Assembly (NCBI GenBank): GCA_947492585.1
Contig: CANLND010000016.1
Location: forward strand, 1-64,000
Length of the DNA stretch: 64,000 nucleotides
Direction of reading: 5' to 3'
DNA from: an uncultured Paracoccaceae bacterium
GTDB lineage: Bacteria; Pseudomonadota; Alphaproteobacteria; Rhodobacterales; Rhodobacteraceae
Below are positions 3,017 to 63,710 of the stretch, piece after piece. Position 1 is the first letter of the stretch, and each line of letters begins with the position of its first letter. A model generated the notes under the pieces. It ran no database searches. It saw only the letters and a program-made list of their open reading frames with translations, and was not told where the DNA came from. Position numbers and translations under genes: made by a program.

Positions 3017-3094
3017 GCCATTTTGGGCTGTGCCCAAAATGGCCATGCCCAACGGGCAAAAGGCCTCGTTCCGAGGTCTGGTGCCGGGCGGGAG
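3017..3094 (-). repeat. bipartite hairpin repeat, copy 1
   Basis: Read on the minus strand: CTCCCGCC (3094-3087), a 5-bp hairpin CCTCG-GAA-CGAGG (3076-3064), CCCGTTGGGC (3056-3047), then a perfect 12-bp hairpin GCCATTTTGGGC/GCCCAAAATGGC (3043-3017). It lies between the convergent 3' ends of the hydroxyacid dehydrogenase and tdk. Four further copies with different stem sequences occur in the window. Confidence 0.7.
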
Positions 3095-3133: not shown

Positions 3134-3718
3134 TCACATGGGATCTCCCACAGCCGCGCGCCAGTGGCGGCGACATAGGGAGACATAGCTTTCGTTGCCG
3201 CCAATCTGCACCTGATCCCCCTCGATGAGAGGGCGCCCCTGTTCATCCTGTCGAATCACCATGGTCGCCTTTTTGCCGCAGTGGCAAATTGTGCGGACCT
3301 CTCGCATTTCATCAGCCAAGGCCAGCAACGTCGCCGAACCCGGAAATAGGTTGCCCTGAAAATCAACCCGCAACCCGTAGCACAGCACCGGGATCCGCAA
3401 ATCATCCACAACCCGCGCCAGTTGCCACACCTGTGCCCGGGTTAAGAACTGCGCCTCATCGACAAAAATTGCTGCCACATCTCCCCGGCTGATCCGCTCT
3501 GAGATTTGCGCAAATAGATCGTCGGTCTGTGAAAATATGTCCGCCTCTTCGGCGATACCGATTCGAGACGCAATGCGCCCCTGTCCGGCTCGATCATCAA
3601 TCTGTGCCGTCAGAAGATAGGTGTCCATGTTGTTTTCGCGGTAGTTATGCGACGCCTGCAACAGCACCGTCGATTTCCCCGCATTCATGGTGGAGTAGTT
3701 AAAATAGAGCTTTGCCAT
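3134..3718 (-). CDS. tdk: thymidine kinase
   Basis: Type II thymidine kinase, 194 residues, phosphorylating (deoxy)thymidine to dTMP in the pyrimidine salvage pathway. P-loop NAGKST is at residues 12-17, the catalytic Glu is in FVDEAQF (E88), the lasso/dNTP region GLRVDFQGNLFPGS follows at 116-129, and zinc ligands appear as C146, C148, C183 and H186. Length is standard. No strong Shine-Dalgarno is seen. It is monocistronic and convergent to the dehydrogenase, with repeat copy 1 between them. Confidence 0.96.
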   Translation of the reverse strand: MAKLYFNYSTMNAGKSTVLLQASHNYRENNMDTYLLTAQIDDRAGQGRIASRIGIAEEADIFSQTDDLFAQISERISRGDVAAIFVDEAQFLTRAQVWQLARVVDDLRIPVLCYGLRVDFQGNLFPGSATLLALADEMREVRTICHCGKKATMVIRQDEQGRPLIEGDQVQIGGNESYVSLCRRHWRAAVGDPM

Positions 3719-8732: not shown

Positions 8733-9842
8733 ATGAAGCTGCGTTTTGATCGCGGACCCTTGGATACGGGGACCGAATTTTCCGCACCACGCGACGTGAT
8801 CCGTGCTGATCAGCCTGCTGATGTGTCAGCAGCACTGGCCGCCGTTGATCAGGCACGCGCTTCTGGATTTTGGGTGGCGGGCTACGCCTCATATGAACTG
8901 GGCTATGCGCTGGAGCCTAAACTGGCCGCCTATATGCCGCAGGATCGTGCGCTGCCCCTGATGTGTTTTGGCGTCTATGATGCACCACAGCCCGCATCTG
9001 CGTTGTCCACAGGGCCCGCCAGTCTGACGGACCTGAACCCGCGCTGGAGTGCACAGAGATACCAATCCGCATTTGACGTGGTCAAAGAAAATATTGGCAA
9101 AGGGGATATATATCAGGCCAACCTGACCTTCCCCATCGACACCACAGCGAGCGGCGGCGCATCGGCGCTCTATGCCGTGCTCGCCGCCAAGCAGCCAGTG
9201 GGCCATGGGGTTCTGGTCGAGCAGGACGGTCTGCCGGATCTTTTGTCGCGCTCGCCGGAATTGTTTTTCCGCACCGACGCCACGGGCGTCATCGAAACCC
9301 GCCCGATGAAGGGCACTCAGCCGCGCAGCCCGGATCCCGCCGAGGATGCCGCGCGCCAGGCGTTTTTGACCCGTGATGTGAAAAACCGGGCGGAAAACCT
9401 GATGATCGTGGATCTATTGCGCAACGACATCAGTCGCGTGGCCGAAGTTGGATCGGTGCATGTGCCAGATCTGTTCAAGGTTGAAACCTACGCCACCGTA
9501 CACCAGATGGTGTCCTTGGTCCGGGCGCAGTTGCGCGTTGATGTGGGGCTGGCGGATCTGTTTGCAGCGCTTTACCCCTGCGGATCCATCACCGGCGCGC
9601 CGAAAATCCGAGCGATGGAAGTGCTGGCGGATTTGGAACCTGCCCCCCGTGACATTTATTGTGGCACCATCGGCTGGGCCGCACCCGACGGCCGCAGTGA
9701 ATTCAACGTCGCCATTCGCACGGTGATGCTGGACGGGGAGCACGCCCGCCTGAACGTTGGTGGCGGCGTGGTCTGGGACAGCACGGCCGAAGCGGAATAT
9801 GAGGAAGCCTTATGGAAAGCGCGCTTTGCCCAGCTGAACTGA
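8733..9842 (+). CDS. pabB: aminodeoxychorismate synthase component I
   Basis: Chorismate-binding enzyme that forms 4-amino-4-deoxychorismate with the glutaminase PabA, the first step to p-aminobenzoate and folate. At 369 residues it matches short PabB forms. Catalytic-domain motifs are ETRPMKGTQPRSP near 190-200, DLLRNDISRVAEVGSV around 227-242, ETYATVHQMVS, and the PCGSITGAPK segment near 284-293. The pabC-like gene begins 31 bases before its end in another frame, so the pair is a coupled operon. Anthranilate synthase is the alternative but the short N terminus and partner argue for PabB. Confidence 0.93.
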   Translation: MKLRFDRGPLDTGTEFSAPRDVIRADQPADVSAALAAVDQARASGFWVAGYASYELGYALEPKLAAYMPQDRALPLMCFGVYDAPQPASALSTGPASLTDLNPRWSAQRYQSAFDVVKENIGKGDIYQANLTFPIDTTASGGASALYAVLAAKQPVGHGVLVEQDGLPDLLSRSPELFFRTDATGVIETRPMKGTQPRSPDPAEDAARQAFLTRDVKNRAENLMIVDLLRNDISRVAEVGSVHVPDLFKVETYATVHQMVSLVRAQLRVDVGLADLFAALYPCGSITGAPKIRAMEVLADLEPAPRDIYCGTIGWAAPDGRSEFNVAIRTVMLDGEHARLNVGGGVVWDSTAEAEYEEALWKARFAQLN

Positions 9843-10480
9843 TCAGCAACGATCCAGGTTTCCGCCTGATAGAGACCTTTGGATTTCATCCCGGTGAAGG
9901 TCTGCGCCGGGGGGGGCTTCACCTGTCCCGCATGAAGGCGTCCGCGCAATCGCTTGAATTGCCCTTTGACGACGCGGAAGCGCGCCACATCATGGCTACG
10001 ATTTCCGGTGACACGCCCCTGCGCTGCCGCCTGACGCTGGATGTTGCGGGTAAATTTCAACTGACACTGGCGGATCTCGCCCCAACCGCGCCGCGTTGGA
10101 GGCTCGCTGTCGCAGACACGCGATTGCAGGCAGAGGATCCATGGTTGCGGCACAAGACCACGCGCCGTGCGGTATATGATACTGCCCGTGCAAATTTGCC
10201 CGCTGGCGTGGATGAGCTGTTGTTTCTGAATACGCGTGGCGAGGTCTGCGAGGGCACAATTACCAATGTGTTTGTAGAGCTGGAGATGGACATGTGGGTG
10301 ACACCGCCCCTGTCGTCGGGCGTGCTGCCTGGGGTGTTGCGGCAGGAGCTGTTGATGTCCGGCCAGGTCCATGAGCAAATCGTGACCGTTGAAGATCTGC
10401 GAGCGGCGCGCAGTGTCTATGTTGGCAATTCGTTGCGGGGGAAAATCCATGCCTGTTGGGACGGGATCTCTGGCGCTTAA
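9812..10480 (+). CDS. pabC: aminotransferase class IV, probable 4-amino-4-deoxychorismate lyase
   Basis: PLP-dependent fold-type IV enzyme of 222 residues, probably releasing pyruvate from aminodeoxychorismate to give p-aminobenzoate. The PLP lysine is in RHKTTRR (about residue 114), the conserved cofactor-phosphate region is EVCEGTITNVFV (about 146-157), and TPPLSSGVLPGVLR matches the LLPG-type segment. It overlaps pabB by 31 bases. Repeat copy 2 begins 10 bases after its stop. The sequence is somewhat shorter than classical PabC, and a D-amino acid or branched-chain role cannot be excluded without the pabB context. Confidence 0.87.
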   Translation: MESALCPAELISNDPGFRLIETFGFHPGEGLRRGGLHLSRMKASAQSLELPFDDAEARHIMATISGDTPLRCRLTLDVAGKFQLTLADLAPTAPRWRLAVADTRLQAEDPWLRHKTTRRAVYDTARANLPAGVDELLFLNTRGEVCEGTITNVFVELEMDMWVTPPLSSGVLPGVLRQELLMSGQVHEQIVTVEDLRAARSVYVGNSLRGKIHACWDGISGA

Positions 10481-10489
10481 AGCCACGCT

Positions 10490-10567
10490 CTCCCGCCTGT
10501 CGCCAGCTGCATGGACATGCATCCGCGCCCGTTGGGCGTGGCCGCGCGCCCTTGCGGGCGCGCGGCC
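10490..10567 (+). repeat. bipartite hairpin repeat, copy 2
   Basis: CTCCCGCC (10490-10497), hairpin TGCATG-GA-CATGCA (10508-10521), CCCGTTGGGC (10528-10537), then a perfect 12-bp stem GGCCGCGCGCCC/GGGCGCGCGGCC with a TTGC loop (10540-10567). It starts 10 bases after the pabC-like stop. Confidence 0.7.
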
Positions 10568-10828
10568 GGGGTGCACAGATGTGCAACCGCGCCGCCCCCT
10601 AGGGCGGCGCCACGCCCAAGTCTGATGTGTTGGATCACATCCGTGATCCGGCCAGAGGACGCGGGAGCGCCTCTTTTGCCGGGGTCTCACCGCAGCGAAC
10701 CGTGCAAAACACGACGCATTTCACGCCATTGCTTGACAAGCGCGCTGCAACCCTGTGTATCGGCGGAGACGAATTTTGCGCCTCTGGCGCGCTCCCCACA
10801 GACGACCCGATCGATGAAAGGTCATGCT
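10568..10828. other. intergenic region upstream of aspS
   Basis: Together with repeat copy 2 this fills the 348 bases between pabC-like and aspS. It contains a further GC palindrome around GCCGCCCCCTAGGGCGGC (10591-10608) and the aspS ribosome binding site GAAAGG (10816-10821). No coding frame is supported, although the aspS frame stays open upstream to 10511. Confidence 0.45.
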
Positions 10829-25625: not shown

Positions 25626-26228
25626 ATGTCATCGCAGCCCTCGACTGAGCGTTTGGCAGATGAAATTCGGGCGTGCAGGTTGTGTGCTGACCGGTTTTCG
25701 GCCACGGCGACGGGCCATGCCCCACGACCGGTGGCGTGGTTTCAAAGTTCGGCGCGTATCTTGATCGCGGGGCAGGCGCCGGGGCTGCGTGTACACGAAA
25801 GCGGGCAGCCGTTTACGGATGCCTCCGGCGACCGGTTGCGGTCTTGGCTTGGTCTTCGGAACGAACAATTTTACGATCAAAGTCGGATTGCCATTGTACC
25901 GATGGCGTTTTGTTTTCCTGGCTATTCAGCGTCGAAATCTGATTTGCCGCCACCAAAAATCTGCGGGGAAACGTGGCATGCGCGCGTGTTGGCGGCATTG
26001 CCCCATATTCAGCTGCGCGTGTTGGTTGGAGGGCATGCACATAAATATCATTTGGGCACCCGCGCTGGTGTCACCGAGGTCGTGCGGGGGTGGGCAGATC
26101 AGGGTGACGGCGTGTTTCCCTTGCCACATCCGTCGTGGCGCAATACCGGTTGGTTGAAACGGAACCAATGGTTCGAGGATCAGCTGCTGCCGGTCCTGCG
26201 CAACCGGGTAAAGGATGTGATGCAATGA
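25626..26228 (+). CDS. uracil-DNA glycosylase family protein
   Basis: A 200-residue member of the uracil-DNA glycosylase superfamily. Motif 1 is GQAPG (49-53) with PFTDASGDRLRSWLG downstream, and motif 2 is HPSWRN. Cysteines C17, C20, C96 and C113 show the CxxC...C...C arrangement of Fe-S cluster family 4/5 enzymes, although the overall sequence is of the shorter, divergent group. The ATG at 25626 has GGGGGAG at 25616-25622. The next gene overlaps its stop by 4 bases. Activity on uracil is likely but not proven from sequence. Confidence 0.85.
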   Translation: MSSQPSTERLADEIRACRLCADRFSATATGHAPRPVAWFQSSARILIAGQAPGLRVHESGQPFTDASGDRLRSWLGLRNEQFYDQSRIAIVPMAFCFPGYSASKSDLPPPKICGETWHARVLAALPHIQLRVLVGGHAHKYHLGTRAGVTEVVRGWADQGDGVFPLPHPSWRNTGWLKRNQWFEDQLLPVLRNRVKDVMQ

Positions 26229-27016
26229 CCGAACCGACCCCTTTGGATCTGGCGCATGCGGCGATGGAGCAAGAGCCTGCCAACGAGACCGCGCGCCTGC
26301 AGTTTTACGAACGCCTTGCCGACTGTGAGCTGTTCATGATGCTGGGGGAGGAGCCCGAAGGAGACGAGATTTCGCCGTCAGTTTTTGACACCGAAGACGG
26401 GCGATTTGTGCTGGTATTTGATCGCGAGGAACGGCTTGCGGCATTTGCAGGACGGGTGGTGCCTTATGTTGCACTGTCAGGGCGTGGTGTAGTGCAGATG
26501 CTGGTGGGGCAAGACATTGGGTTGGGGGTCAATCTTGAGGTGGCGCCGTCGGCCATCTTGATCCCGGATGCGGCGGTGTCCTGGTTGCACCAGACCTTGG
26601 GGCATGCGCCGGAACAGGTGGAAGCGGGGGTCGAAGAGTTTTTGCCGCCTGCTGGCCTGCCCGAAGCGTTGCTGACCGCGTTGGATGTGAAGCTGGCAAC
26701 CGCTGCGGGACTGGCCACAAATGCTTATCTGGTTGCGCTGCGGTACTCAGGCGGTGGTCAGGGGCACTTGCTGGGGTTTGTTGATGCAACCGATGGGGCA
26801 CAAGAGGCCCTTGCCAAAGCGGTGTCGGAGGCGTTGACCTTTTCAGGAATTGAAGTGGGGGCTTTGGATGTTGGGTTCTTTGCAGCAGAAGATCCCGCCG
26901 CAGCGCGTCTGGCGCGCGTTGGCCTTCGTTTTGAGCTGCCCGCTTTGAAAACGACCCAAAGGTCATCACCAGCCGCGCCGGGATCTGATCCGGACAAGCC
27001 TCCACGTCTGGTCTGA
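26225..27016 (+). CDS. SseB family protein
   Basis: A 263-residue cytoplasmic acidic protein of the SseB-like family (N-terminal SseB domain, MTEPTPLDLAHAAMEQEPAN..., FYERLADCELFMML). It has the domain pattern of enhanced serine sensitivity protein homologues, with a C-terminal second half of similar composition (VALRYSGGGQGHLLGFVDATD). Start codon ATG overlaps the preceding stop (ATGA). Function in this family is not established. Repeat copy 3 follows its stop. Confidence 0.82.
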   Translation: MTEPTPLDLAHAAMEQEPANETARLQFYERLADCELFMMLGEEPEGDEISPSVFDTEDGRFVLVFDREERLAAFAGRVVPYVALSGRGVVQMLVGQDIGLGVNLEVAPSAILIPDAAVSWLHQTLGHAPEQVEAGVEEFLPPAGLPEALLTALDVKLATAAGLATNAYLVALRYSGGGQGHLLGFVDATDGAQEALAKAVSEALTFSGIEVGALDVGFFAAEDPAAARLARVGLRFELPALKTTQRSSPAAPGSDPDKPPRLV

Positions 27017-27067: not shown

Positions 27068-27136
27068 CTCCCGCCTGTCATTGATTTTTGACAAAATCGC
27101 TTCCCGTTGGGCCGGGCGCCGCGCAAAGCGCGGCGC
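27068..27136 (+). repeat. bipartite hairpin repeat, copy 3
   Basis: CTCCCGCC (27068-27075), hairpin GATTTT-TGAC-AAAATC (27083-27098), CCCGTTGGGCC (27103-27113), then a 9-bp stem GCGCCGCGC/GCGCGGCGC with AAA loop (27116-27136). It lies between the convergent SseB-like and yghU genes. Additional GC-rich hairpins follow to about 27255. Confidence 0.7.
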
Positions 27137-27278
27137 GGTCTGCGGTCGGCGCGAGTGCTCTAGATGATCGGTGCCAGCAGCGCGCCGCAGGCGCGCTGCT
27201 GGGCCCAAGGCCGTTAGGCTGGGCCGTCTCAGACGGCCAGCCGCGGGCGCGGGAGAGCTGCGTTTTGCGGCGAAACAC

Positions 27279-28163
27279 CTAGTCTGGGGCGCTGTCTTTG
27301 GCGTCCAACTTGTCTTGCGTTTGGGTTGCGAAATCTTCGGCGCTGTGGCGCTCCCACAGTTGGGTTTCGAGGTCACCAAAGGCGCGGTTTACCATTCGGC
27401 CGCGTTGTACCGCGGGGCGGGCGTCGATCCGTTTGGCCCATCGTAGCAAATTGGTGTAGCTTTCGACGTCCAGAAACTCTGCTGCCCCGTAGAGGCGGCC
27501 CAGAACCAGCTGACCATACCAAGACCAGATGGCCATGTCGGCAATCGAATAGCTGTCCCCAGCGATATAGGTCGTCTTGGCCAATTGCTGGTCCAATACG
27601 TCCAGCTGGCGCTTTGTTTCCATGGCAAAGCGGTCGATGGGATACTGCCATTTCTCTGGCGCGTAGGCATAGAAGTGGCCAAAGCCCCCGCCCAGATACG
27701 GGGCGCTGCCCATTTGCCAGAACAGCCAGTTCATCACCTGCGTGCGCTCGGCCCCTGCCTTTGGCAGGAAGGCGCCGAATTTCTCGGCCAGATGTACCAA
27801 GATCGATCCGCTTTCAAACACCGGCACGGGCGCGTCTCCGGAGCGATCCATCAGAGCAGGGATTTTCGAATTTGGGTTGATCTCGACAAAGTCGGACCCA
27901 AATTGATCGCCGTCCCCGATTTTGATCAGCCAGGCGTCATATTCGGCTCCTGTGTGACCTGCAGCCAGCAATTCTTCCAGTAGGACGGTGACTTTCACAC
28001 CATTTGGCGTGGCCAAAGAATAAAGCTGCAGCGGATGCTTCCCAATGGGCAGCTCTTTGTCGTGGGTGGCGCCTGCGATGGGGCGGTTGATGCTGGCGAA
28101 TTCGCCCCCGTTGCCCTGTTCCCAAACCCAGACCTTAGGGGGAGTGTAGGTTGTCTCTGTCAT
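27279..28163 (-). CDS. yghU: glutathione-dependent disulfide-bond oxidoreductase YghU
   Basis: Glutathione S-transferase-like protein of the Nu class with disulfide-bond reductase activity in E. coli. The 294-residue sequence tracks YghU almost throughout: GKHPLQLYSLATPNGVKVT, AEYDAWLIKIGDGDQF, NPNSKIPAL, FESGSILVHLAEKFG and NWLFWQMG. The ATG at 28163 matches the family start and the longer frame to 28463 is not used. Divergent from the YHS-protein gene. Confidence 0.95.
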   Translation of the reverse strand: MTETTYTPPKVWVWEQGNGGEFASINRPIAGATHDKELPIGKHPLQLYSLATPNGVKVTVLLEELLAAGHTGAEYDAWLIKIGDGDQFGSDFVEINPNSKIPALMDRSGDAPVPVFESGSILVHLAEKFGAFLPKAGAERTQVMNWLFWQMGSAPYLGGGFGHFYAYAPEKWQYPIDRFAMETKRQLDVLDQQLAKTTYIAGDSYSIADMAIWSWYGQLVLGRLYGAAEFLDVESYTNLLRWAKRIDARPAVQRGRMVNRAFGDLETQLWERHSAEDFATQTQDKLDAKDSAPD

Positions 28164-28474
28164 AAGATATGCCCTGTCTTTTCGATCTACGCCCCAGTTG
28201 GGGCCTGTGTTTTGGTGCGGCCGCTTGGCGTGTTCACACGGGCTGCGTGCACAGACATAAGGGGCGGGGCACAAATTCCAATGACTGGAACCTTTGTTTT
28301 TACAAAAACCTTTGTTTTTACAAAACCTGTAACGAAAGGGGCTGTTTCTGTCACAGACGCTCATCCATAAACACAGAGCCGTGAGCCCCCCTTCGCATAA
28401 GGTGCAAAACCCATATTGTAACGCCAAGGGCACGCAAAAGCCGCGTGCGACATCTATTCTCAATAGGAGCGATC
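28164..28474. promoter_or_regulatory. divergent promoter region with duplicated 17-mer
   Basis: 311 bases between yghU and the YHS-protein gene. Two adjacent copies of CCTTTGTTTTTACAAAA occur at 28291-28307 and 28309-28325 (period 18), a likely duplicated protein-binding site. AGGAG (28465-28469) serves the YHS gene. No coding frame is supported. Confidence 0.5.
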
Positions 28475-53078: not shown

Positions 53079-53924
53079 ATGTCAGATCCAGTCACGCAGG
53101 CAGATGTTGAAGATGTCCTGTCGTCGATTCGCCGTTTGGTGAGCGATGACGGCCAGAAGGTTTCGAATGTACAGACCAAGCGCCGCGCGCCCGTGCCGCG
53201 CTTGGTTTTGACCCCCGCCTTGCGGGTGGCAGATGATACAGACCCAACACCCCCTCCTGCTGACACTCCGCGCGCTGAGGCTTTTGATTTGTCTCAATAC
53301 GCTGAGCCACAGCAGGGGCTAAGCGTTGTTTCTGATGCGCGCGAGCCCCAAACTCCGCTGACCCCAGAGGCCCCTTGGCAAGATCCGGACGCGACGCTGT
53401 TTGCAATGGTTCAGGATGCCGCGCCAGAGGACGCCGTGTCTGACATGCCGCTCGACGGGCCTCAGGTGAATGACACGGCACTGGGTGCACCTGTTTCTGA
53501 ACCCACCGTCCCAAATGCGTCACAAAAGGCTGCAGCCGTGGTGCAAAAGATCGCTGAGATGGAGGCCGCAACCGGGTTTCGATCGGCATTTGAGGGGTGG
53601 GAGCCGGATGAGCGGAACACGCCGCCCTTTGCAGAGACTTCGAGACATACTGTCCCATGGCAGGACCCCTCAGAGGTGGCGTCATCGGCGACGGATTTCT
53701 CAGACGAGCTGTGTGTTGAGGACGCGGTGACGAACAGATGTATGTCTCGTGTGACTGAGACGGTGGACGACAGCGTTTTGGACGAAGAGGCGCTACGTGA
53801 ATTGGTGGCGCAGACCGTGCGCGAAGAGTTGCAGGGTGTTTTGGGCGAACGGATCACGCGCAATGTACGCAAACTGGTGCACCGCGAAATTCAACGTGCG
53901 TTGGCCGCCCGCGATCTGCGTTAG
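53079..53924 (+). CDS. PopZ-like protein (DUF2497-like)
   Basis: A 281-residue acidic protein with the three-part layout of PopZ: a short N-terminal helix DVEDVLSSIRRLVSDD, a long Pro/Glu/Asp-rich disordered middle, and a C-terminal helical block LDEEALRELVAQTVREELQGVLGERITRNVRKLVHREIQRAL. PopZ forms polar microdomains and anchors chromosome origins in Caulobacter; here the assignment is by architecture and end motifs, so related DUF2497 proteins remain possible. Repeat copy 4 follows its 3' end. Confidence 0.72.
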   Translation: MSDPVTQADVEDVLSSIRRLVSDDGQKVSNVQTKRRAPVPRLVLTPALRVADDTDPTPPPADTPRAEAFDLSQYAEPQQGLSVVSDAREPQTPLTPEAPWQDPDATLFAMVQDAAPEDAVSDMPLDGPQVNDTALGAPVSEPTVPNASQKAAAVVQKIAEMEAATGFRSAFEGWEPDERNTPPFAETSRHTVPWQDPSEVASSATDFSDELCVEDAVTNRCMSRVTETVDDSVLDEEALRELVAQTVREELQGVLGERITRNVRKLVHREIQRALAARDLR

Positions 53925-53989: not shown

Positions 53990-54063
53990 CTCCCGCCCGG
54001 CTTCGATTTCTTTACAAAAGAAAATCTGTGCCCGTTGGGCCGAGCGCCGCGCAGGCGCGGCGC
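53990..54063 (+). repeat. bipartite hairpin repeat, copy 4
   Basis: CTCCCGCC (53990-53997), hairpin GATTTCTTT-ACA-AAAGAAAATC with one bulged A (54005-54026), CCCGTTGGGCC (54031-54041), then GCGCCGCGC-AG-GCGCGGCGC (54044-54063). It lies between the convergent PopZ-like and cobQ genes. Confidence 0.7.
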
Positions 54064-54121
54064 GGTTGCGCGTGGGGGGAAGTCGTTGGCTGCATCTTTG
54101 CGGGCTGCGGTGCTGACTGGG

Positions 54122-55564
54122 TTATCGGGCCAGCGACAGCAAGTGGTCGAGATCCATATATGTTTCGAGATGGTCCGCGAGCTGATCCAGTGCTGCATCG
54201 ACCGATGTGTCGTATTGCGTTTGGCTGGATTGACCGAACTGCCCCAAAAACGCCGCCCGGAAGGGATCAGAGGCAAACAGCCCGTGAAGATACGAGCCAC
54301 GCACCCGACCATTTTCTGAGGTGGCACCTTCTGGGCGCGCGCCGATCTGCAACCAATTGCGCGCGCAGTCCGGACCGGTGGTCTGGCCCATATGGATTTC
54401 GTAGCCGGTCACGGGAAGTTGGCTGTCGGCGGTTGTTGCATCTACCAAAGTTACGCGCTTTTCATCTCCCATGACGGTTTTGACATCGAGAAGACCAAGC
54501 CCCGCGACGTCTCCGCTGCGTCCGTCGACGCCGTGCGGGTCGCTGATGCGGCGGCCGAGCATCTGATACCCGCCACACAACCCCATCACATGTCCGCCGC
54601 GCCGATGGTGGGCCAGAATATCGATGTCCCAGCCTTGGGCGCGCAGATAGGCCAGATCCCCTAGGGTAGATTTGCTGCCGGGGATCAGCACCAAATCAGC
54701 ATCACCGGGCAGAGCCTGTCCACCGGGAATGATGTCCACGCTGACGTCTGGCTCGGCGGCAAGGGGGTCCAGATCATCAAAGTTGGCCATGCGTTCAAGC
54801 TGCGGCACAACAATTTTAAAGGATCCCCCGGTGTGCGAGGCGATGTCCAGCATGTCCTCGGCAGGGAACTTCCACGCGTCCCAAAACCATGGGATAACCC
54901 CCAGCGAGGGCCAACCCGTGCGCGCGGCGATATCGTCGCGTCCGGCATCAAACAGGCTGAGATCGCCCCGAAAACGGTTGACGGCAAAGCCAACTATTTT
55001 GTCCAGGTCGCCTTGCTCTAGCACCGCCTGCGTGCCGACAATCTGCGCGATCACACCGCCGCGATGAATATCTCCCATCAGTACCACAGGTACATCCGCG
55101 GCGCAGGCAAAGCCCATATTGGCGATGTCGCCCTTGCGGAGGTTGGTTTCTGCCGGGGAGCCGGCCCCCTCGATCAATACCAGATCTGCATCGGCGCGCA
55201 GGCGATGATAGCTTTGCAATGCGGCCTCAAGCAGGCCGGATTTGTCGCGCATAAAGGATCCCGCCGCCCGGGTGCCGCGGCGCTTGCCCTGAACGATGAC
55301 CTGCGCTCCGGTGTCGGTTTCGGGTTTGAGCAGGATTGGGTTCATATCTGTATGGGGCGTCCGCTTGGCCGCCAGCGCCTGTAGGGCCTGAGCGCGACCA
55401 ATTTCGCCGCCGTCTGGCGTCACTGCGGCATTGTTCGACATGTTTTGCGGCTTAAATGGAGCCACACGCAAGCCACGTCGCGTGTAGGCCCGCGCCAATC
55501 CGGCAACGATCATTGATTTTCCGACATTGCTGCCGGTGCCTTGGATCATGATTGACTGCGCCAT
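54122..55564 (-). CDS. cobQ: cobyric acid synthase
   Basis: Amidates four side chains of adenosylcobyrinic acid a,c-diamide in cobalamin synthesis. The 480-residue protein has the dethiobiotin-synthetase-like N-terminal domain with P-loop [19 protein letters not shown], and a C-terminal type I glutaminase domain with the nucleophile Cys in [12 protein letters not shown] and the His in [10 protein letters not shown]. No other cobalamin gene is in the window. The B12 product is needed by the methylmalonyl-CoA mutase system that MeaB serves. Confidence 0.95.
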
Positions 55565-61604: not shown

Positions 61605-63467
61605 TCAGGCCTGTCCAAACACACGACGGGTGAGGCGCTGGAACCATCTGGTTTTGTCTTCATCGCCCACGGTAGGTCTGGGGATCTGGGCGGACAGTGC
61701 CTTTTGGTCAACCAGTGTTTTTCCGTCTTGAAATTGCAGGCGGTACAGGTCGGCGTAGATGCCGCCACGTTCCAGCAGTTCATCATGCGTGCCCTGATCG
61801 GCAATCTGACCCCGTTCCATCACGATGATTTTGTCGGCGTTGCGAATGGTCGACAGGCGGTGGGCGATCACAATGGTGGTGCGCCCGCCTGCAAGGCTGT
61901 CCAGAGCGGCTTGCACCATCTTTTCGGATTGGGCATCCAGCGCGGATGTGGCTTCGTCGAGCAGCAGAATTGGCGTGTCGCGCAGCAGCGCCCGTGCAAT
62001 CACCACGCGCTGGCGTTGCCCCCCCGAAAGAGCAGAACCACGTGGCCCAACGAGCGTGTCCAGGCCATCGGTGAGTTTGGGGAGGAAATCGGAGACATGT
62101 GCAGCATCGAGCACTTGTTTCAGACGTTCATTGGACACATCCGTGCGGCCCAGAAGAATGTTTTCCCGCAACGTTTCATCAAACAGCAGCGCTTCTTGGG
62201 TGACCACCGAAAACAGACCGCGTAGATCGGACAGTTCCATATCTGCAATCGCCACGCCCCCAATAGTCGCCTGACCCTGTTGCGGGTCAACAAGGCGCGT
62301 CAGAAGGTTAAAGACGGTTGATTTCCCAGCGCCGGATGCACCAACAAGCGCAGTGGTTTTGCCTGCCTCCGCCACCAGAGAGAGATCGCGTAGAATATCA
62401 GAATCGCCGTATTGCAGGCCGATGTTATCAAAACGAATTTCAGGCAGGCCCGTTGGAGGTGTTTTGGGCTGAGCAGGTGAAACCATAGAAATAGGCATAT
62501 CCATCAACGCCTTGATCCGCTCTAGTGCGGCGGCGGCGGCCTGCCAGGTGCCGCTGACGGCTGCAAGACGGCGCATAGGGTCAAAAGTCAGGCCGATGGC
62601 TGTGAAGAAGCTCATGAATTGACCGACGGATTTTTCTCCGGCGATGATCTCTCCGCCGCCGTAAAGCACCACCCCCATGACGCCGAGACCTGCCATGATA
62701 TCAATCAATCCGGTGATTGAGGAGGTGCCAAAGCTGGCCTTGACTTCAGAGTGGACGAAATCGTCCATATGGGTGGCAAACCGGTCCTGCTGGTAACGCT
62801 CTAGGCTGTTGAGCTTGATTGGAATGATGCCGTGAAAGATCTCATCAAGGCGGGTGGCGAGGGTGGCGCCAAGATCGCGCGCACGTGACGCTTTTTTTCG
62901 TACATATCGCTGGACCGAAGCAATCGGCAGCAGCAAGAGCGGCAAGCCGACCAGCATGATGATGGTCCATCTCCAGTCAACCATCATCGCCACATAAAGG
63001 GTTGCGATGAGTTGAGTGACGTCCCGCCCGGCTCCGGTGATGACAGCGCGCCAGACCTGATTGATGCTGGTGACATCGGTCTGAACCCGCTGGATGAGCG
63101 CTCCGGGTGGGTGGTCTTGGTGAAATGCAGGATCTTGCTGGATCAACCGGCCGAGCATGTCTTTGCGCAGGTAGGCTGCCGAGGTTTGTGAAATTTTGGC
63201 CAGCAGAACCTTTTGGCAGACGGAGCTGAGACCCCGCACGGAAAAGATTACCAAAAAGGCGAGGCTGACCCAGAACAGGGCGTTTGCATTGCCGGCCACA
63301 AAGACGTGGTCGAACATGGGCTGCATCATATAGGCCAGCCCGCCCACCATGGAGCCCTCAATGAGCATAAAGATCACGGCCACCCCTAAGAGCCCCATAT
63401 GGCGACGCAGATAACCGCGCCAGAGCCAGCCGAGAAGCTCGCGGGAGGATTTTGGAGGAGTGCTCAT
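61605..63467 (-). CDS. MsbA-type ABC transporter (permease and ATP-binding fused)
   Basis: A 620-residue half-transporter: six membrane helices in residues about 20-310 followed by an ATP-binding domain with Walker A VGASGAGKST, Q-loop SVVTQEALLFDETLRENI, signature LSGGQRQRV and Walker B PILLLDEATSALD. The arrangement and GALIQRVQTDVTSIN fit lipid flippases of the MsbA group, which move lipid A or similar lipids across the inner membrane. The C-terminal tail after the ATPase (about 40 residues) is unusual. Repeat copy 5 lies upstream. Confidence 0.9.
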   Translation of the reverse strand: MSTPPKSSRELLGWLWRGYLRRHMGLLGVAVIFMLIEGSMVGGLAYMMQPMFDHVFVAGNANALFWVSLAFLVIFSVRGLSSVCQKVLLAKISQTSAAYLRKDMLGRLIQQDPAFHQDHPPGALIQRVQTDVTSINQVWRAVITGAGRDVTQLIATLYVAMMVDWRWTIIMLVGLPLLLLPIASVQRYVRKKASRARDLGATLATRLDEIFHGIIPIKLNSLERYQQDRFATHMDDFVHSEVKASFGTSSITGLIDIMAGLGVMGVVLYGGGEIIAGEKSVGQFMSFFTAIGLTFDPMRRLAAVSGTWQAAAAALERIKALMDMPISMVSPAQPKTPPTGLPEIRFDNIGLQYGDSDILRDLSLVAEAGKTTALVGASGAGKSTVFNLLTRLVDPQQGQATIGGVAIADMELSDLRGLFSVVTQEALLFDETLRENILLGRTDVSNERLKQVLDAAHVSDFLPKLTDGLDTLVGPRGSALSGGQRQRVVIARALLRDTPILLLDEATSALDAQSEKMVQAALDSLAGGRTTIVIAHRLSTIRNADKIIVMERGQIADQGTHDELLERGGIYADLYRLQFQDGKTLVDQKALSAQIPRPTVGDEDKTRWFQRLTRRVFGQA

Positions 63468-63602: not shown

Positions 63603-63684
63603 CTCCCGCCCCGTTTTGGCGGACGGGGAATCCCGTCCTAAGCCAAACGCGTTGGGCCGAGCGCCGGGCCTGACGGCCCGGCGC
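63603..63684 (+). repeat. bipartite hairpin repeat, copy 5
   Basis: CTCCCGCC (63603-63610), hairpin GGACGGG-GAAT-CCCGTCC (63621-63638), CGCGTTGGGCC (63648-63658), then a perfect 10-bp stem GCGCCGGGCC/GGCCCGGCGC with TGAC loop (63661-63684). It lies just beyond the 3' end of the hisC-like gene and upstream of the ABC transporter. Confidence 0.7.
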
Positions 63685-63710
63685 GGGTGGCGTTTATGAT
63701 GACCGAGCGT

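Follow-up and report, generated by a model that had tools for sequence, protein, structure and literature searches.

The element in the window

The window, by which we mean the whole 64,000-nucleotide stretch of DNA that was analysed, carries five full copies of a short element consisting of two linkers and two hairpins (Table 1). The copy that stands at the centre of this account (copy 3) lies between two convergent genes and faces, within the same intergenic gap, an inverted second half on the opposite strand. Copy 2 has a similar inverted partner. Both halves were overlooked in the first-pass annotation, whose count of five is correct for full copies, all of which we find where it had placed them. 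Searching the window with a covariance model (R1, described below) returned the five copies, the two inverted halves, and four weak matches with E-values of 0.23-0.86.

All five copies have the same linkers, CTCCCGCC and CGTTGGGC, in agreement with the earlier description of them as nearly invariant, and the nucleotide preceding CGTTGGGC is, as had been reported, either C (four copies) or G (copy 5). The first-hairpin stems that had been quoted as differing between copies (GATTTT/AAAATC, TGCATG/CATGCA, and GGACGGG/CCCGTCC) are present and complementary; full pairing of TGCATG with CATGCA would leave only 2 nt for the loop, and a stem of five pairs is therefore the realistic form there. When copy 3 is folded alone, the lowest-energy form of its first hairpin is a competing pairing, TGTCA/TGACA, and not the GATTTT/AAAATC stem to which the model aligns it. 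Copies 1, 3, and 4 do lie between convergent genes. The further statement that all five copies sit at the 3′ end of a gene holds by position, with the qualification that copy 5 lies between two minus-strand genes, adjoining the 3′ end of the right-hand one (23 nt past its stop codon) and antisense to it.

Table 1. Copies of the element in the window, their parts, and their neighbouring genes (R1, covariance model; bit scores are for R1)
Feature	Positions	Strand	Parts, sequence, or flanking genes	Basis
Copy 1	3017..3094	-		48.1 bits
Flanks of copy 1			convergent: 1981-2937 (+, 2-hydroxyacid dehydrogenase) and 3134-3688 (-, thymidine kinase)	Pfam
Copy 2	10490..10569	+		59.2 bits
Flanks of copy 2			about 10 nt past the stop of 9812-10480 (+, class IV aminotransferase); class II tRNA synthetase gene (+) downstream	Pfam
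Inverted second half, partner of copy 2	10586..10667	-		32.7 bits
Copy 3	27068..27139	+	left linker, hairpin 1, right linker, hairpin 2	68.9 bits
Flanks of copy 3			convergent: 26225-27016 (+) and 27279-28433 (-)	
Copy 3, left linker	27068..27075	+	CTCCCGCC	sequence
Copy 3, hairpin 1 inner stem	27083..27098	+	GATTTT / AAAATC	sequence, model alignment, covariation
Copy 3, right linker	27105..27112	+	CGTTGGGC	sequence
Copy 3, hairpin 2	27116..27136	+	GCGCCGCGC / GCGCGGCGC	sequence and fold
Inverted second half, partner of copy 3	27174..27255	-	sub-type CTCCCGCGCC...GGCCTTGGGC	28.2 bits, E 3.6e-5
Copy 4	53990..54066	+		72.1 bits
Flanks of copy 4			convergent: 53079-53924 (+) and 54122-55564 (-, CobB/CobQ-like)	Pfam
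Copy 5	63603..63687	+		59.8 bits
Flanks of copy 5			both minus-strand: 61605-63467 (ABC transporter) and 63711-64772 (extends past the window)	Pfam

A high-copy repeat in the genome

The genome to which the window belongs (G000; 3,587,845 bases in 83 contigs) contains 26 matches to the pattern CTCCCGCCN{15,35}CGTTGGGC and none to its reversal. Copy 5 escapes this pattern because its spacer is longer, and widening the spacer to N{15,37} gives 27 matches. On its own, CGTTGGGC occurs 15 times in the window and is also frequent in shuffled versions of it (mean 4.56, largest 12), and therefore only the full arrangement is diagnostic. From 24 copies in this genome we built R1, a covariance model of 74 positions and 21 pairs, a kind of model that the first-pass annotation had suggested as a means of looking for further copies with compensatory changes at gene ends. 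At E<=0.1 it places 70 copies in the 3.59 Mb, of which 69 have E<0.005 and the remaining one has 0.037. The search scored 150 of 2848 first-look candidates and may therefore have passed over weak copies, and copies with broken linkers would escape a model that rests on the linkers. The copies lie at gene 3′ ends, as anticipated. Among the 69 strong matches, CTCCCGC opens 65, TTGGGC is present in 66, and 63 have both. The unit is thus CTCCCGC, a variable hairpin 1, TTGGGC, and hairpin 2, about 75-85 bp in all. In its copy number in this genome, and in having exact matches in each of 17 other genomes of the genus, it resembles the high-copy, dispersed, extragenic palindromes of the REP/BIME kind.

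A fold kept while its letters change

The claim that selection acts here on structure and not on sequence is strongly supported by comparison among copies. In the 26 exact copies of the own genome, hairpin 1 has a mean folding energy of -11.9 kcal/mol, as against -5.4 for chimeras joined from the halves of two copies. All 69 first-hairpin units in this genome are distinct, with a best pairwise spacer score of 0.69 per letter and a median of 0.34. We then used two further sets, one of 136 copies from other Rhodobacteraceae (100 of at least 115 named loci searched) and one of 106 copies (80 stretches) from two congeneric genomes, G016 and G017. Paired cells are standard in 77.8% of cases in the named set (56.5% shuffled; none of 500 shuffles as high) and in 81.7% in the G016/G017 set (57.0% shuffled), and the covariation scores are 0.428 (0.124 shuffled, 0.036-0.071 with the partners slid) and 0.518 (0.145 shuffled), respectively, both alignments having been fitted to the structure and hence leaning towards pairing. 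Covariation is far above both kinds of control, where stems pairing no better than chance had been named as the outcome that would count against the claim.

All 136 of the 136 named copies, and 105 of the 106 from G016/G017, have a standard pair beside the linkers, and G-C, C-G, A-U, and U-A all occur there. In the outer part of hairpin 1, standard pairs make up only 56-66% of cells in these two sets, owing in part to alternating tandem mismatches. Among 224 copies, the tandem positions beside the linkers are both non-standard in 117, both standard in 62, and otherwise in 45; the non-standard form (117 of 224) is T.C/C.T, which is G.A on the complement. Folding of single sequences is less telling. 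With their flanks, the five window copies have z-scores against shuffles of -4.62, -1.59, -2.96, -0.10, and -4.06, three beating every shuffle and two (-1.59 and -0.10) being unremarkable when folded alone; the comparative evidence for the fold is much the stronger.

Several asymmetries suggest that the folding strand is the complement of the one read from CTCCCGC to TTGGGC. On the read strand, most single mismatches in hairpin 1 are A.C and C.T, with A.C/C.A in 46 cases and G.T/T.G in 10 (259 of 311 copies scored), counts that are affected by the C-rich composition of that strand. Tetraloops of the GNNA type occur on the complement in 46 of 94 cases and on the read strand in 2, a bias that we take as a hint only, and the tandem mismatches become G.A on the complement. 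Other observations speak against the complement. Its edge in stability (269 of 302 copies, RNA parameters) is largely an effect of composition, since four rounds of shuffling give 238-251 of 302; the loop-near stem has no wobble asymmetry (34 G.T, 25 A.C); and hairpin 2 is slightly more stable on the read strand (228 of 302).

Position relative to genes

In the own genome, 44 of the 69 copies lie between convergent genes. For placement we used 65 copies from this genome, 106 from G016/G017, and 135 from the named loci, all at loci picked for containing the element, with genes called by a simple hexamer-based script that may be wrong in single cases. The 184 unpaired copies in these sets comprise 117 between convergent genes, 36 co-directional in the sense orientation, 17 co-directional in antisense, 7 between divergent genes, and 7 with one flank unknown; the excess of sense over antisense has p=0.013. 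By comparison, convergent gaps make up 112 of the 450 gaps of at least 60 bp in the named loci, which are themselves enriched in the element. For the 117 unpaired copies between convergent genes, CTCCCGC lies a median of 24 nt from the upstream stop codon, and hairpin 2 a median of 56 nt from the other stop codon. Outside the own genome, 195 of 241 copies lie within 100 nt of a stop codon. A preference for 3′ ends, above all between convergent genes, with few copies between divergent ones, is the placement of REPs and BIMEs.

The copies also form inverted pairs, as REPs and BIMEs do: 57 are tail-to-tail and 4 head-to-head across the three sets. In 19 of the 61 pairs the two halves overlap by 25-28 nt, which is a shared hairpin 2, and in the others they are spaced by -4 to 171 nt.

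A plain intrinsic terminator can be rejected for lack of a T-run behind hairpin 2: in unpaired copies of the G016/G017 and named sets, the T fraction at the 15 positions past the end of the match is 0.13-0.29. Canonical terminators are not clearly rarer where the element is present (6 of 63 convergent regions of the named loci with it, 10 of 56 without). At three places in the own genome (C4:120308, C13:27438, and C3:40677), we saw by eye an apparent hairpin-plus-T-run terminator beside the element, and an element that has ordinary-looking terminators as neighbours does not simply replace them.

Distribution, dispersal, and retention

The 17 other congeneric genomes searched have 2-61 exact matches each. 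Across 295 genomes of the family, 63 have at least one exact match and 232 have none; three or more (up to 114) occur in 33 of the 295, as opposed to 3 of 295 for the reversed pattern. The covariance model, with at most 80 candidates scored per genome, finds matches at E<=0.001 in 12 of 61 family genomes, the own genome included. Among members of the class outside the family, 18 of 285 have one or two matches, and those listed do not look hairpin-like by eye. The family of repeats is thus patchy within the Rhodobacteraceae and at chance level outside. Carriers among the matches listed include Ruegeria, Leisingera, Phaeobacter, Tropicibacter, Tropicimonas, Tritonibacter, and Mangrovicoccus.

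Dispersal within a genome is seen in two cases. In genome G022, closely similar copies occupy 16 of 24 loci examined, and one identical first-hairpin unit is present in eight copies and another in three. Compared with one reference, 15 copies score 0.82-0.98 over the 120 bp that begin with CTCCCGC, and the 100 bp upstream match at 0.25-0.40, the level of unrelated DNA. The gene preceding these near-identical copies is on the same strand in 14 of 16, ending 10-80 nt before the copy (12 at 10-40 nt), and on the opposite strand in 2. Genome G118 has a 204-bp inverted dimer at two loci 0.57 Mb apart (88% identity). On the left, the similarity extends about 12 bp beyond the outer CTCCCGC; on the right, it breaks off near the corresponding CTCCCGC. 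Two loci of this genome also share an identical 49-bp first unit and differ in the second hairpin, which makes the two hairpins modular. Nothing of the kind was seen in the own genome, where all 69 first-hairpin units differ and recent movement is therefore not shown.

Retention is suggested by comparison with the congeneric genomes, as judged by raw counts from BLAST among element-flanking genes at 55% identity or more. In G017, 18 of 39 exact-match loci adjoin homologues of genes that flank the element in the own genome; both flanks correspond at 12 of these, and at each of the 18 at least one homologue agrees in orientation. The figures for G016 are 9 of 41 loci, 3 with both flanks, and 7 with a same-orientation match. 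Four G016 copies have exact counterparts in Tritonibacter mobilis NBRC101030. At corresponding places in these two genomes the letters of the hairpins have often changed completely.

Relation to known repeats and RNAs

GTAG REPs and BIMEs are described as short, palindromic, extragenic repeats with tens to more than 100 copies per genome, found at 3′ ends between convergent and unidirectional genes, as singles and as inverted dimers (PMC3733652). Our element is similar in all of these respects other than architecture: it has two hairpins, a first hairpin that is nearly free in sequence, and the two near-invariant linkers CTCCCGC and TTGGGC. Few copies contain GTAG or its complement at any position (8 of 69 own, 8 of 136 named, and 8 of 106 from G016/G017). 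The CGTC REPs, as presented in the same paper, share with the element their occurrence in alphaproteobacteria, their dimers, their 3′-end placement, and the lack of a known dedicated transposase; each of their units consists of a single stem of 8-9 bp that begins with AT and carries a CGTC tag, in most cases with a CCA tail (PMC3733652). We reject this assignment, as positions 9-12 read CGTC in only 4 of 69 own copies, 81 of 136 named copies, and 44 of 106 copies from G016/G017, the stems vary in length and in how they begin, and the element has other linkers. The text of that paper, its species figure aside, makes no mention of Rhodobacter, Ruegeria, or Roseobacter. Thus, as far as the two super-families are described there, the element shares the REP way of life and neither the tags nor the stems of either (PMC3733652).

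Bacterial MITEs, which are non-autonomous, are a possible further point of comparison; the G118 dimer (204 bp) has inverted ends CTCCCGC...GCGGGAG and is dispersed, and the element differs from MITEs in that single halves are common. With the structured RNAs of Rfam it has in common a conserved fold with compensatory changes. A known Rfam RNA is rejected, as no match reaches the gathering threshold in the window or in 20 loci, where three matches at E 0.55-0.9 all fall under the gathering scores. Passages of PMC4809877, PMC8632094, and PMC2864571 name other Rhodobacterales RNAs or sRNAs and not this element. By title and abstract, the open-access literature yielded no description of the repeat; subscription papers, mostly outside that scope, may contain one.

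A proposed REP-like family and its alternatives

Here, we propose that the element is probably a new REP/BIME-like family of dispersed repeats in the Rhodobacteraceae, of neither the RAYT nor the CGTC type. Of the three roles offered in the first-pass annotation (mRNA 3′ stabilisation or termination, a mobile REP-like element, or a binding site for a structure-specific protein), the second is the best supported, by the G022 copies, the G118 dimer, the patchy amplification, and the inverted pairs. The near-invariance of the linkers makes a structure-specific binding protein a fair inference, and a role in mRNA stabilisation or termination is possible in view of the 3′-end position and of retention beside homologous genes.

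The main alternative is a structured RNA at mRNA 3′ ends that is inherited vertically, acts as a terminator, a 3′ stabiliser, or an antisense shield, and has linkers to which a protein binds; dispersal would then be rare and secondary. We regard this as unlikely overall, though several observations speak for it: the nearly universal standard pair beside the linkers, the median of 24 nt from the upstream stop codon, the excess of sense over antisense copies, the copies beside homologous genes in other species, and the scarcity of degraded copies (a single match at E 0.005-0.1, with 150 of 2848 candidates scored). Presence beside homologous genes across species may exceed what a decaying mobile repeat would give. 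What weighs against this alternative is the near-identity of G022 copies that have unrelated DNA upstream, the repeated G118 dimer, the 232 of 295 sampled family genomes without an exact-pattern match, the missing T-run behind hairpin 2, and canonical terminators that are not clearly scarcer beside the element.

The other explanations fare worse. That these are ordinary GTAG-type REPs moved by a RAYT transposase would agree with the extragenic, 3′-end, and convergent placement, the inverted dimers, and the high copy number that the published account gives for such repeats (PMC3733652), but the element has no GTAG tag, and the REP transposase family PF01797 was found neither in the own genome nor, counting it, in 16 of 18 congeneric genomes searched. 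In other genera, just 2 of 12 copy-rich genomes have the family, and an identical search detects it in 5 of 14 control genomes; this reading is largely refuted, and we hold it to be very improbable. About equally hard to credit is the idea that pairing is a by-product of template-switch (quasipalindrome) mutation and not of selection. Whole inner stems are indeed swapped between corresponding copies with the outer parts kept (e.g. C3:57783 and L243), but template switching alone would not keep CTCCCGC and TTGGGC near-invariant, and it accounts neither for the place beside stop codons nor for the coordinated tandem positions (117, 62, and 45 of 224). Integron attC sites are recombination sites recognised by their fold, with boxes of the form RYYYAAC ... 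GTTRRRY, the latter being the R′ box consensus. GTTGGGC fits GTTRRRY, and variable stems between conserved boxes are common to both, but the other end of the element is CTCCCGC and not RYYYAAC, and the copies are scattered at 3′ ends and not arrayed with cassettes. The left box largely refutes an attC site, which we consider next to impossible.

In light of the element being a repeat whose fold is constrained, whose place is past stop codons, which has dispersed in G022 and G118, and which occurs beside homologous genes in congeneric genomes, how might it spread and persist? It is best filed as a family that appears, from genome comparison, to be mobile in some lineages and retained in others. 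The unit, either single or a tail-to-tail inverted dimer whose halves have hairpin 2 in common or a spacer between them, would spread without a gene of its own, by means of a putative enzyme that is apparently not a RAYT transposase. This enzyme would recognise the fold and the two linkers on what is presumably one single strand, and such recognition would leave the letters of the hairpins free provided that they pair. Copies would settle just past stop codons, mostly between convergent genes, and many would be kept, probably because GC-rich hairpins towards the 3′ end of transcripts do no harm or bring some benefit, for example by blocking 3′ exonucleases or by limiting read-through and antisense transcription. 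No replication-strand bias was seen on two chromosomes (21 and 16 of 37 copies in G061; 6 and 6 of 12 in G062, one small-contig match left out), with the terminus taken as opposite dnaA, a result that counts slightly against a single-stranded mechanism tied to the lagging strand.

A bolder version is that the element is addressed by its fold independently of sequence, mobile with no known transposase, inserted in one orientation 10-40 nt past stop codons, and then kept by its hosts across species as a 3′-end device. We think this rather doubtful as a whole; if it were true, the element would be a self-spreading gene-end module, copied by a structure-specific nuclease or via an RNA intermediate of the transcript end. 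Either way, it offers a clean natural case in which fold and not sequence is conserved over hundreds of copies, with near-invariant linkers that mark what is recognised. The family is widespread in the marine Roseobacter group and amplifies in lineages in which the search gave no RAYT-family gene, which opens the questions of how REPs move without RAYTs and what they do at 3′ ends, for example in Ruegeria pomeroyi and Tritonibacter mobilis, which are tractable in the laboratory.

Minor observations

A weakly conserved, purine-rich GGRRGCG lies at -7 to -1 before CTCCCGC (305 copies in three sets), so that the element may extend beyond our model; the complement of GGRRGCG could pair with CTCCC. 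Some genera have fixed inner letters (for example TCCGCTCG...CTCGCT in G298 and TCGGCC...GGCCTC in G277), which are lineage-specific sub-families. Three element-bearing contigs (L071, L097, and L159) are filed as Nocardioides marinus DP1N28-1, an actinobacterium; given the element and the sister name Leisingera aquaemixtae DP2N28-1, this assembly is probably mislabelled or mixed. A second repeat, AAATACTCCGGGGGTGA, lies directly downstream of many G022 copies and of one copy in the own genome; some of its occurrences continue into a palindrome of the GGGGGCAGCGCCCCC type, which is not found in the window. The repeat occurs at 17 of 333 loci, namely 15 from G022 (L306-L332) together with L011/L181 (G000:C5, beside 102380), and may be either a companion module or a separate Rhodobacteraceae repeat.
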